From Clostridiaceae bacterium (lineage in GTDB: Bacteria; Bacillota; Clostridia; Saccharofermentanales; DTU023), in the NCBI GenBank assembly GCA_012799825.1, contig JAAZKK010000079.1, positions 1-35,311 of the forward strand: DNA of 35,311 nucleotides, given 5' to 3'. Under the pieces are notes generated by a model. The model was not told the origin of the DNA. It saw nothing but the letters and a program-made list of their open reading frames with translations, and did not search any database. Positions 16,256 to 21,390 of this stretch are shown here, one piece after another. Numbering within the stretch: position 1 is the first letter of the stretch; the number at the start of each line of letters is the position of its first letter. Position numbers and translations under genes: made by a program.

Positions 16256-17431
16256 TTACTGAAATGTTCCGGCCAGAATCTCTTCTAATTGCGCGTCATC
16301 GACCTCAATGTTGTAGAAGAGTTTGAAGAAATCTTTTACTTGAGTCTCAGGCGAATCTTCGTAGATTTCTGGATAGAATGTCGCGCCGAGCCAACGAACG
16401 CCGAGATAACGGTTGACGGATGGCGGTCCGCCCATGAAACCGTACGGAACCGAAGGAACAATGATGAGTTTGTCATTTTTGACGGCCTCAAGCGTGCTCC
16501 ACGCGGGATCGTTTTTGATCTCTTCGGCTAATGCGGCTCCATCGACGAGGATGTAGTCGGGATTCCATTGGATTATCTGTTCCATAGAGACTTCTGTGCC
16601 TCCGCCTTTTGAAGAGGCTTCGACGTCGGCCACGTTGACGACGGGAATGTAGTCAAGAAGCTCACTGTGGAATGAGCCTACAGCATTCGTGTTGAGTCCG
16701 AGATCGCCGAGTGCCCAATAGACCTTGACAACGTCTTCTTCAGGAATCTCCGCTTTTGCCTTTTCGCAGAGCTTAAGCGTTGCCTCGCAGTATTTGGCAA
16801 GCTCTTCAGTTCTTGAATTGTCGCCAATCAGTTCTCCAATGTCGCGATACGTTTTCGGCATGCCTGCGAATGTAGCCTCAATAAAGATGGTGGGCGTGTT
16901 GATCTGCTCTTGCATCCCGTCCATGTCTTCCTTGATGGTCTCTTTCTTTTCTCCGATGTCAATGATGACTTCCGTCTCTGCCGCAAGAACAGCCTCTAGG
17001 TTAAAATCGCTACTCTTTCCGTAAAATTGTCCGAATACTGGCAAATCGCCGAATTTCTTGTCAATCAGCTTGAGTTGCGCGCCTGAAAACTCTCTTGCTT
17101 TCCCGCAGAGCAGATCCGGCGCTGCCGTATAAAGGACGATCTGCGCCAAAGGACCTGAGGGCGCAATCCTAGATAGCTTTGTCGGAACTTCTACTTCTCT
17201 GCCGACGGAATCTGTAAATGTGCGCGTTTCCGGCTCGGTGGGTTTTGGATCCGTCGGATCGGGTTTAGTTGTAGCAGGCGGAGCAGGTTCAGTCGCTTCA
17301 ACAGATGGCGGTGAAGACGGCTCCGTCGCATCGTCAGACGGAGTTTTAGGTCCACAGCTCGTGATCATCAACGACAGAGCCATGATCATCGCTAAAACAA
17401 GCGAAACCCATGTCAAATTCTTCTTTTTCAT
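16256..17431 (-). CDS. ABC transporter substrate-binding lipoprotein (Fe/B12/oxyanion type, cluster A)
   Basis: Signal plus lipobox MKKKNLTWVSLVLAMIMALSLMITSCG, Ser/Thr/Pro linker, SVGREVEVPTKLSRIAPSG, GPPSVNRYLGVRWLG; GGAGGAAAAAC ribosome-binding site. Confidence 0.92.
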   Translation of the reverse strand: MKKKNLTWVSLVLAMIMALSLMITSCGPKTPSDDATEPSSPPSVEATEPAPPATTKPDPTDPKPTEPETRTFTDSVGREVEVPTKLSRIAPSGPLAQIVLYTAAPDLLCGKAREFSGAQLKLIDKKFGDLPVFGQFYGKSSDFNLEAVLAAETEVIIDIGEKKETIKEDMDGMQEQINTPTIFIEATFAGMPKTYRDIGELIGDNSRTEELAKYCEATLKLCEKAKAEIPEEDVVKVYWALGDLGLNTNAVGSFHSELLDYIPVVNVADVEASSKGGGTEVSMEQIIQWNPDYILVDGAALAEEIKNDPAWSTLEAVKNDKLIIVPSVPYGFMGGPPSVNRYLGVRWLGATFYPEIYEDSPETQVKDFFKLFYNIEVDDAQLEEILAGTFQ

Positions 17432-17612
17432 GTTTTTCCTCCTAATTTCTTTTTTTGTTTAACATAATTGGTGGCAAATTGATTTGCCGCTCCCATCGCG
17501 ATGTACCTCATCGCGTATGATCCTTTTGTTGACGCTTTGCCTTTAGCTTTTTTCTGTTTCAAGAACGTTTACAGGCATTTAGTTATGCTCTTTTTGTCTC
17601 TGAGATTTCGCG

Positions 17613-18449
17613 TCACATCTCTCTTTTTGTTGCGTCTTGACTGCGTATTTCTTCGAAATTTGGCAAAACGGTTACGATATCCGTTTTTGCACTTTTTTCT
17701 AGGTGTATGGGCACACGGTAGACATGCGATAAAAGCGATTCGGACAATACTTCCTGAGGTTTTCCGAACGCTATTGCAGATCCCCCCTCAATGAGCAACA
17801 CGTTATCGGCGTAAAGAAAGATATGTTGCGGATTGTGTGTTGAAATGAGCACGAGATAGCCGCAGTTCGCGAGTTGTCGAATCTCTTCGAGGACACGTAT
17901 CTGATTGCCGTAATCGAGGCTCGCCGTCGGCTCGTCCATGATCAGGATCGGAGCATCCTGCGCGACAGCACGTGCAATCAGAACCAATTGTTGTTCGCCG
18001 CCCGAGAGCTGGTCATATAATCGATTGGCGAATGATTCAATTTGCAAAAGCTTCATCGCCTCAACTGCTTTAATGCGCTCGCGCTTTCCCGGTTGCGCGA
18101 ACATGCTGAAAGAAGCAGTTGTCCCCATCAGAACCATTTCTTCGACGGTAAACTGAAATGTTCCTCTTTGAGTCTGCGGAATATATGCCATCTGCTTGGC
18201 ACGTTCGCGACTCGACAAGGTTTTAACGCTGAGCCCGTTGATCTTGATTTCCCCTCTCTTCAGCGGAAGTACGCCGAGGATTAACTTGAAAAGTGTTGAT
18301 TTTCCGGCGCCGTTTGCTCCGAGAACACCGACCACTCGTCCGCGCGGGACGGAGAAGGTGAGATTCTTCAACACTTCGTTCTGGCGGTAGCTGAACGAAA
18401 CATTTTGCACGTCTATGCCGCCCGACTTCTCAAGATTCGTTTTTATCAT
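17613..18449 (-). CDS. ABC transporter ATP-binding protein (FecE/BtuD type)
   Basis: Walker A GANGAGKSTLFKLILG, signature LSGGEQQLVLIARA, Walker B ILIMDEPTASLD; ATGA overlap with the upstream permease gene. Confidence 0.95.
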   Translation of the reverse strand: MIKTNLEKSGGIDVQNVSFSYRQNEVLKNLTFSVPRGRVVGVLGANGAGKSTLFKLILGVLPLKRGEIKINGLSVKTLSSRERAKQMAYIPQTQRGTFQFTVEEMVLMGTTASFSMFAQPGKRERIKAVEAMKLLQIESFANRLYDQLSGGEQQLVLIARAVAQDAPILIMDEPTASLDYGNQIRVLEEIRQLANCGYLVLISTHNPQHIFLYADNVLLIEGGSAIAFGKPQEVLSESLLSHVYRVPIHLEKSAKTDIVTVLPNFEEIRSQDATKREM

Positions 18450-20167
18450 CCCGTCACACCCTTTCTGCCCTCACGAATAATGAGAAAAACAAAGAAGGGA
18501 GCGCCGATAAACGCGGTCAATATCCCGAGCGGAATACCTGATGTCGTGGCGCGCCGCGCGATGTTGTCGACGAATAAGAGAAAACTTGAACCAATGATCG
18601 TCGAAGCGGGTAGAGATACACGGTTGTCACTTCCGACCATCATTCGTGAGATGTGCGGCACGACCAATCCGATCCAGCCGATGACGCCGCTTACTGAAAC
18701 GCATGTGGCGGTGATCAATGTTGCCGACACCACCATGAGCGTCCTGACTAAACGCGTGCGCACACCCATCGTCGCCGCGGCTTCTTCGCCTAGCGCGAGC
18801 AAGTTGAGTTGCCATCGGAGCAGAAGAATGACCGTGATCCCTAAGAGGATCGGTATGGCGGCGAAGGCAAGGGATTTCATGCGAGCCGAATTCAAAGAAC
18901 CCATAAGCCAATATGTGATCGAAGGCAACTGGTTTGTCGGATCGGCTGCGTATTTTATGAGCGACAGTCCGGCAGAGAACAGCGAGCTGACGACGATGCC
19001 TGTCAGGACAAGTGACAGCAGCTTGTTTGCCCTGACAAGAGAAGAGATAAAAAGAACGAGAACAATGGAGAGCAGGCCGAACGCAAACGATGTGATTGTG
19101 ATTCCTGCCGACGAGAATCCTGCCAGAATCGCAAGCGCCGCGCCAAAACTTGCTCCCGATGACGCGCCCAAAACGTCGGGGGATACCATGGGGTTCTGAA
19201 AAACACCCTGGAATGTATGCCCCGCCACTGAGAGCCCAGAGCCGACGAGAATCGCCAGTAGGATGCGCGGCAATCGTACATTGATGAGGACGGTCGTGAT
19301 CTCCTCTGCGAACACCTCGCCTGTCGCCCAAAGACGGCTCCAAAAGTAACGGATAATTGTTATGGGGTTGATGGAGTACCAGCCAATAGCAAACGAGATA
19401 ACGACTAGAAAGATGAAAATCGCTCCCATTATCCCGAACCGGAGTGTCAGATGCTTTTTTTTGTTTCCCTCCGAAAGCTCGCCCGGCTCCTCTTCCAACT
19501 CTTTTGTGATGGTGCCGTCGTTTTCAAGCACAGCTCTAATGATAGATTCATGTGTCAGAATAGCTTGGCGTCGCTCATAGAGTCTGACTTTATCGGATTC
19601 ATTAATATCGTAGCGCGAGAGCGTATGCTCAAGCGATTGGTCGTTTTTCCAGACGACGATCAGCGGTGTCGCCTTGCTTTCAAGCAACTGAATCACGCGG
19701 TTGAAAATCTTATCGTCAAGGAGCTCAACTCCTCCAAGTTCATCGAGGACGATGACGTCGCCCTGATTGTTGAGCAGAGCAAGCACTTTGTCAGAAAACT
19801 GATTCATGTCAAATCGACTGCCCTCCCCCTCAACAAGAAGGAAGCAATCTTTAGGAAAGGTTAAGCCGTTTTGGTGGCGTACGGTTAATAATCCCGTTTC
19901 TCGTTGTGTGCCGGCGGCAATATGCGAAAACCCTATTTTTCTCCCATTCTTGGAGATGTGTCGAATCGTCATATATCCGGCGGGGTTCAATGCCGCGTCT
20001 CCAAGGTACCGCTGTACGAAGGTCGATTTTCCGCTGCCAACCACACCTGTCACGAGGAGGTGTCCTTTGTAGGAGCCGTCATCATTGAATAAAGCAGACT
20101 GCGCGAACAACATTAGGCCACGTTCATTGGCCGGATAAATGAATGTTTTTTCTTGTAAAACTGTCAT
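18446..20167 (-). CDS. Fusion protein: N-terminal THEP1/NTPase_1-like P-loop NTPase (about aa 1-235) + FecCD-family ABC permease (about aa 240-573)
   Basis: Walker A GVVGSGKST (aa 41-49), Walker B DVIVLDELGGVEL (aa 137-149); then RLPRILLAILVGSGLSVAGHTFQGVFQNPMVSPDVLGASSGASFGA and VGPHISR-like VVPHISRMMVGSD of FecCD. One uninterrupted ORF. Confidence 0.9.
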   Translation of the reverse strand: MTVLQEKTFIYPANERGLMLFAQSALFNDDGSYKGHLLVTGVVGSGKSTFVQRYLGDAALNPAGYMTIRHISKNGRKIGFSHIAAGTQRETGLLTVRHQNGLTFPKDCFLLVEGEGSRFDMNQFSDKVLALLNNQGDVIVLDELGGVELLDDKIFNRVIQLLESKATPLIVVWKNDQSLEHTLSRYDINESDKVRLYERRQAILTHESIIRAVLENDGTITKELEEEPGELSEGNKKKHLTLRFGIMGAIFIFLVVISFAIGWYSINPITIIRYFWSRLWATGEVFAEEITTVLINVRLPRILLAILVGSGLSVAGHTFQGVFQNPMVSPDVLGASSGASFGAALAILAGFSSAGITITSFAFGLLSIVLVLFISSLVRANKLLSLVLTGIVVSSLFSAGLSLIKYAADPTNQLPSITYWLMGSLNSARMKSLAFAAIPILLGITVILLLRWQLNLLALGEEAAATMGVRTRLVRTLMVVSATLITATCVSVSGVIGWIGLVVPHISRMMVGSDNRVSLPASTIIGSSFLLFVDNIARRATTSGIPLGILTAFIGAPFFVFLIIREGRKGVTG

Positions 20168-20352: not shown

Positions 20353-20522
20353 CTGTTTTCCGGAATGCAAGCGCCCGATCGTTATACTCTCGGATGCCGT
20401 GATCGTTTTGCCTTAATCCTTCCGGATCACAGAACTCCTGTTTTCCGGAATGCAAGCGCCCGATCGTTTTACTCTCGGATGCCTTGATCGTTTTGCCTTA
20501 ATCTTTCCGGATCGCATAGGCG
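20353..20522. repeat. Tandem duplication, 85 bp x 2
   Basis: ctgttttccggaatgcaagcgcccgatcgttatactctcggatgccgtgatcgttttgccttaatccttccggatcaca (20353) repeated nearly exactly at 20438. Confidence 0.9.
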
Positions 20523-20826: not shown

Positions 20827-21390
20827 TTAGAGATTTGCAGAATCAGATGCGCTCTCTTTAGTATCTGTTGATCCAATATTAGATTCGGAGTCTATGGCTC
20901 TAGCATTCGATCCGCCATCTGATATTTCAGTACTTGTTCCGGCGTCTATTCCTTTAGCGTTAGATCCGGGATCTGTTGATCCAATATTTGATCTGGCGTC
21001 TGTTGATTCAGGTTTTGATTCTGCGCCTTTAGCCTCGGCACTTGATTCGGCTTCTGTTACTTCAGTATTTGTTCCGGCGTCACTTTTAACATTGCGCGCC
21101 ATAATATTTTCAGCAACTTTGAGTGAACTTAAGAACCGTTGTACCGTCATCTCATCGAGTTCGCTACTCTGATCTTTGCCTTTTAGCCCAACAAGATAGT
21201 CTAACGACACGCCATAATACTCTGCGAGCTTAAGAAGCGTCGTCAAATCAGGTTCGCGAGTGCCCAACTCATATTTGGAAATCGCCTGACGGCTGACGTT
21301 CAAATGTTGTGCTACATCTATCTGTCTGATATTTCGCGCTTTTCTAAGAGAGGCTAATCGTCTTCCGAGAATGTTTGCTGATTTTTTCAT
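20827..21390 (-). CDS. XRE/Cro-C1 family HTH regulator with 9-residue-repeat C-terminal tail
   Basis: LGRRLASLRKARNIRQIDVAQHLNVSRQAISKYELGTREPDLTTLLKLAEYYGVSLDYLVG (HTH_3), then about nine Ser/Asp-rich nonapeptides. Confidence 0.88.
   Translation of the reverse strand: MKKSANILGRRLASLRKARNIRQIDVAQHLNVSRQAISKYELGTREPDLTTLLKLAEYYGVSLDYLVGLKGKDQSSELDEMTVQRFLSSLKVAENIMARNVKSDAGTNTEVTEAESSAEAKGAESKPESTDARSNIGSTDPGSNAKGIDAGTSTEISDGGSNARAIDSESNIGSTDTKESASDSANL

Follow-up and report, generated by a model that had tools for sequence, protein, structure and literature searches.

The 35,311-nucleotide stretch analyzed here (the window; contig JAAZKK010000079.1 of a Clostridiaceae bacterium) encodes a protein in which a THEP1-like NTPase is fused to the FecCD-type permease of an ABC importer. 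NTPases of the THEP1 family are known from thermophiles, archaea and eukaryotes, humans among them. Judging from domains, relatives and gene neighbors, we favor with moderate confidence the reading that this THEP1 subfamily is a late Moco-maturation factor for xanthine-dehydrogenase-type hydroxylases, here tethered to a molybdate/tungstate importer, and the tether probably couples metal entry to cofactor assembly. The importer itself is a variant of the known MolBC-A type; of wider interest is the proposal that a THEP1 subfamily serves in Moco maturation. Repeated fusions and neighbors point one bacterial THEP1 branch to a specific, testable role in this process, and in the fusion nature may have linked the import of the metal physically to its insertion. 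The genes lie on the minus strand in the order fusion, ABC ATPase, binding protein (16256-20167), with the following features:

18446..20167, minus strand: fusion of a THEP1-like NTPase and a FecCD (MolB-like) permease, 573 aa, ATG start; one ORF with PF03266 and PF01032 above cut-offs
20021..20047, minus strand: Walker A, GVVGSGKST, aa 41-49 (lysine K47); G41, G46 and K47 invariant across 31 NTPases
19721..19759, minus strand: Walker B and putative catalytic Glu, DVIVLDELGGVEL, aa 137-149 (D142, E143); D142, E143, G145 and E148 invariant across the 31 NTPases
19613..20062, minus strand: NTPase_1/THEP1 domain, aa 36-185; PF03266 2.3e-13, profile match to 1ye8 and 2i3b, pLDDT 87.7
19463..19519, minus strand: flexible linker, about aa 217-235; pLDDT <50, length varies among fused homologues
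18473..19417, minus strand: FecCD permease domain, aa 251-565; PF01032 5.9e-81, HI1471 MolB the best PDB relative by sequence and fold
17613..18449, minus strand: ABC ATPase of the importer (FecE/MolC-like), 278 aa; PF00005 1.8e-32, 4-bp overlap with the fusion
16256..17431, minus strand: substrate-binding lipoprotein, MolA-like, 391 aa; PF01497 3.6e-16, PDB 4pag 3.4e-41, HI_1472 MolA 1.9e-16

The fusion is an uninterrupted in-frame ORF in which both domains score well above the curated Pfam cut-offs. An initial annotation of the window had described 573 codons at 18446-20167 with an NTPase half followed by a permease half, and both the ORF and the two-domain layout hold, on the minus strand. 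Scanned by itself, the N-terminal part scores 50.8 bits against NTPase_1 (cut-off 23.9), which places it in the P-loop-containing NTPase_1/THEP1 family, and the permease match spans profile positions 2-311 of 311, a complete permease. The profile match, the P-loop and the Walker B DE motif that identify a THEP1 protein are all present. The annotation had located both Walker motifs correctly but had numbered the Walker A lysine K48 where it is K47; E143 is presumably the catalytic glutamate. A profile of the 31 related NTPases matches the THEP1 structures 1ye8 (Aquifex; 3.6e-27) and 2i3b (human NTPCR; 1.5e-23) nearly end to end. Membership of the MobB family was rejected, as the fusion protein has no PF03205 match up to an E value of 1. 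The NTPase half alone is modeled confidently by AlphaFold (mean pLDDT 87.7); a Foldseek search with it finds 2i3b at a probability of 0.99 but weakly (E 9e-3, TM 0.43-0.53), and 1ye8 falls outside the top 50. The full-length model consists of the NTPase, a disordered linker and a multi-helix permease, and at a pTM of 0.59 it gives no reliable contact or mutual orientation between NTPase and permease.

The draft genome that contains the window is split into 129 contigs, and the annotation had itself raised the concern of a sequencing-made fusion. We have set aside a sequencing or assembly artefact, the chance of which is negligible: in an order-level survey of 188 genomes the fusion ORF (558-603 aa) is found in nine of the 14 sampled genomes of the genus, eight besides this one, and purifying selection acts on both halves. 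The named MAGs L009-L012, evidently four of these nine, carry the same fusion at a best-segment identity of 73-82%. Between the window and L009, the NTPase half has a dN of 0.162 and a dS of 1.60 (dN/dS ~0.10), and the permease half a dN of 0.062 and a dS of 1.42 (dN/dS ~0.04). Among the 188 order-level genomes and an even draw of 391 class-level genomes, no NTPase-FecCD fusion was found outside the genus. The annotation's judgement that the architecture is undescribed also stood up, given that a literature search (most subscription journals outside its coverage) returned no paper joining THEP1 with FecCD, none combining nucleoside-triphosphatase, molybdate and XdhC, and nothing useful on DUF2478 or NTPase_1 with molybdenum.

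Could the ORF be real and still yield two proteins? Internal initiation near a conserved methionine at aa 247, where the first membrane helix begins, would do so; the ATG is kept in nine of nine fused sequences, and GGAGG lies upstream of it in the window. However, GGAGG is seen in the window alone, some 38 nt away from the ATG; all fused sequences keep the reading frame through a linker whose length differs across the genus; and aa 247 lies inside the first predicted helix (233-260), part of which a product starting there would lose. We hold two separate products to be very improbable.

In the NTPase tree, stand-alone proteins of the sister genus g2 (L131, L132) group in one 99/99 clade with the fused domains, at a fork whose order the tree does not settle. 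In g2 the stand-alone NTPase, which falls in this clade, adjoins XdhC with no FecCD gene beside it (L187, L188). This points to an XdhC-associated NTPase as the probable source of the fusion; the tree does not establish a single origin, because L131 and L132 sit in the same clade. One can ask whether the joining has any consequence: operon neighbors may simply have been joined in frame, so that the NTPase keeps its earlier function and the tether does no more than fix stoichiometry and co-expression. Such a neutral event would agree with the unfused colinear order XdhC-NTPase-FecCD-FecE-SBP at two loci (L013, L030), with a linker that is long and variable, and with the model, in which the halves make no reliable contact. 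It is improbable in our view, given that the genus has retained the fusion while diverging deeply (NTPase identity down to 0.47) and that in this genome it has been relocated as one cassette with the ATPase and the binding protein.

The separate ABC ATPase that the initial annotation had placed at 17613-18449 is indeed there. For the permease, HI1471 MolB is the top PDB match (2.5e-72), the permeases for heme, ferrichrome and B12 that follow score no better than 7e-50, and 2nq2 leads the fold comparison with a TM of 0.94 on target length, consistent with a ten-helix BtuC-type fold. The binding protein matches 4pag first (ligand not established here), and HI_1472 MolA is its best named match in the PDB. 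Because permease and binding protein match MolB and MolA better than heme, B12 or siderophore importers, we predict, with the moderate confidence given jointly to the Moco-maturation reading of the NTPase, that the three genes form a MolBC-A-type importer; molybdate or tungstate is the predicted substrate, inferred from homology and the XdhC/MocA/ModE context. MolBC-A of Haemophilus influenzae (HI1470-HI1472) transports molybdate, and its MolA binds tungstate too (PMC4031551). It provides the closest characterised relatives of the permease and binding protein and has the same three-part type II layout, whereas, of the two, only the importer described here has an N-terminal THEP1 NTPase fused to the permease. 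Like Haemophilus, which has both MolBC-A-type and conventional Mod systems, this genome also encodes a conventional ModA, so the predicted importer is not the sole molybdate route.

In trans-inhibited type I molybdate importers the ModC regulatory domain inhibits transport. Unlike in these ModC-type importers, a Pfam scan of the ATPase at 17613-18449 found no TOBE/Mop or other extra regulatory domain, and a regulator could thus sit elsewhere. The main rival to a maturation role is a regulatory effect on transport: the NTPase would sense nucleotide, molybdate or cofactor state and inhibit or release transport as the ModC domain does. In one genus the NTPase is attached to the permease, and elsewhere FecCD operons encode it; accumulation by Haemophilus MolBC-A appears limited, with its regulation poorly understood (PMC4031551). 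Nevertheless, we consider a transport regulator rather unlikely, given the company the NTPase keeps in other genomes. Some loci combine XdhC with the NTPase, or an NTPase-methyltransferase fusion with XdhC and MocA, with no transporter alongside (L161, L163, L187, L188), and the fusion of the NTPase to MocA elsewhere is not explained by a pure transport regulator. The initial annotation, which had neither a substrate nor comparative data to go on, had proposed that the NTPase gates transport, senses nucleotide state or acts on the incoming ligand. The Moco context and the slow turnover of THEP1 proteins favor a maturation role instead, and the NTPase is usually a separate protein tied to XdhC, MocA or a transporter operon, in some genomes with XdhC and no transporter beside it, which argues against gating as the leading reading.

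A Moco role for the NTPase is proposed because of its neighborhood and fusion links to XdhC, MocA, ModE and the transporter. Stand-alone relatives adjoin XdhC, MocA, ModE and MolBC-A-type transporter genes, and XdhC lies immediately upstream of the fusion in L009-L012, L193, L194 and L195. The NTPase is present in 28 of 80 FecCD-relative loci (fused in four of the 28), together with XdhC in 14, a conserved methyltransferase in 17, ModE in three and MocA in two; hosts include Bacillota, Chloroflexota (Flexilinea, Anaerolineaceae) and Spirochaetota. Tallied by hand, approximately two thirds of the above-cut-off PF03266 genes in the order-level survey have a FecCD importer, MocA or XdhC as fusion partner or neighbor. 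At class level, also by hand, molybdenum-related genes or genes of Mol-type transporters lie close by in 16 of 20 other NTPase loci, a neighborhood count biased upward by a query built mainly from transporter-linked NTPases. Across the 391 genomes of the class sample, XdhC occurs in 15 of 21 genomes with the NTPase versus 48 of 370 (p 7e-9); XdhC was not seen in the remaining 6 of the 21, which counts against the Moco reading.

The NTPase has been joined to other partners as well. A MocA-NTPase fusion lies beside ModE and FecE at five loci (L117-L119, L122, L123), and the reverse order, NTPase-MocA, follows FecCD-FecE at L111. The NTPase-methyltransferase fusion beside XdhC and MocA (L161, L163) has no transporter in the fetched stretch. 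An NTPase_1-NUDIX fusion follows FecE (L114, 1075-2277), and an NTPase_1-histidine phosphatase fusion follows FecBCD (L049, 3356-4540). In a further fusion, a MocA-like nucleotidyltransferase is joined to a ModE-type DNA-binding domain (L078, 4058-4990), beside XdhC, the NTPase and a FecBCD importer. Separately, five genomes of the genus carry a THEP1-like paralogue, which in both loci inspected lies between recF and gyrB in a dnaN-recF-gyrB cluster (L196, 2366-2926; L197, 7634-8191), a non-molybdenum setting that counts against the Moco reading.

For the Moco-maturation role, we picture the following sequence. Molybdate or tungstate would enter via the permease dimer, and two tethered NTPase domains would stand at its cytosolic face, where the N-terminus is expected to be. 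In its NTP-bound state the NTPase would assist MoeA, MocA or XdhC in metal insertion, cytidylylation or Moco hand-off, slow NTP hydrolysis would reset the switch, and the tether would hold the assembly step and its partners at the importer mouth. Aquifex THEP1 and human NTPCR hydrolyze only some 20-30 NTP per hour, and when this was reported no in vivo function of the human protein was known (PMC2700126). Hydrolysis this slow is easier to reconcile with a switch in assembly than with a motor or gate for transport. XdhC binds Mo-MPT and shields it until sulfuration and insertion have taken place (PMC2997495). We raise only tentatively a stronger version, in which the importer passes its metal straight to a complex that assembles the cofactor: XdhC, MocA or MoeA might be recruited to the membrane by the tethered NTPase, which would couple molybdate or tungstate entry to insertion of the metal into the pterin, and the subfamily might supply the NTPase still missing from the MCD/xanthine-dehydrogenase branch of Moco maturation.

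The fusion NTPase resembles THEP1/NTPCR proteins (COG1618, PF03266; 1ye8, 2i3b) in its P-loop, its Walker B with catalytic Glu and its end-to-end profile match. Known members are stand-alone and soluble, whereas this one is permease-tethered and belongs to a molybdenum-linked group. The proposed functional likeness is to MobB, as an accessory P-loop protein working alongside MoeA and a Moco nucleotidyltransferase, and the NTPase would act as MobB does in the guanylyl/tungsten branch. A MoeA1-MobB platform has been proposed to mediate tungstate insertion in Methylorubrum (PMC13197769), and the MobA-MobB fusions in NCBIfam are paralleled by the NTPase_1-MocA fusions described here. MobB is nonetheless a different family: PF03205 is matched neither in the fusion protein nor in the contigs of this genome, which is ~92% complete.

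The genome itself encodes MoaA, MoaC and two MoeA-like proteins for Moco biosynthesis, six MoCoBD_1 (xanthine-dehydrogenase-type) hydroxylase subunits, XdhC, YqeB and a YqeC-MocA fusion. The last of these (L202, contig C1, 8397-9959; 520 aa) adjoins YqeB and is itself a further case of two molybdenum-hydroxylase accessory proteins fused into one. This set overlaps the selenium-dependent molybdenum hydroxylase accessory system (YqeB, YqeC, MocA, XdhC), the description of which by Haft and Self in 2008 makes no mention of an NTPase, an ABC transporter or molybdate (PMC2276186). On contig C125 (L089, 3636-12939), a second FecBCD importer lies with a stand-alone NTPase_1, two Oxidored_molyb (molybdopterin-binding) lipoproteins and two further small lipoproteins, possibly another molybdenum- or Moco-related uptake cluster judging from its gene content.

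XdhC lies away from the fusion in this genome, on contig C103, which counts against the Moco reading. There (L101, 929-3118), a peptidase-C26 gene directly follows XdhC, an apparent empty site; in relatives such as L012 this gene lies beyond the binding-protein gene. From the adjacency of XdhC and peptidase-C26 we conclude that fusion, ATPase and binding protein moved together, as a cassette, from their usual position to the one in the window. A tblastn search found no decayed xdhC upstream of the fusion within the window. Upstream of the fusion, in a stretch without a recognised gene, there are about two copies of an 85-bp repeat (20353-20513); it was rejected as a recombination site common to contig C103, with which no repeat is shared. 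Beyond it, an HTH_3 regulator (20827-21390) has a repetitive Ser/Asp/Gly-rich C-terminal tail derived from a 54-bp tandem repeat.
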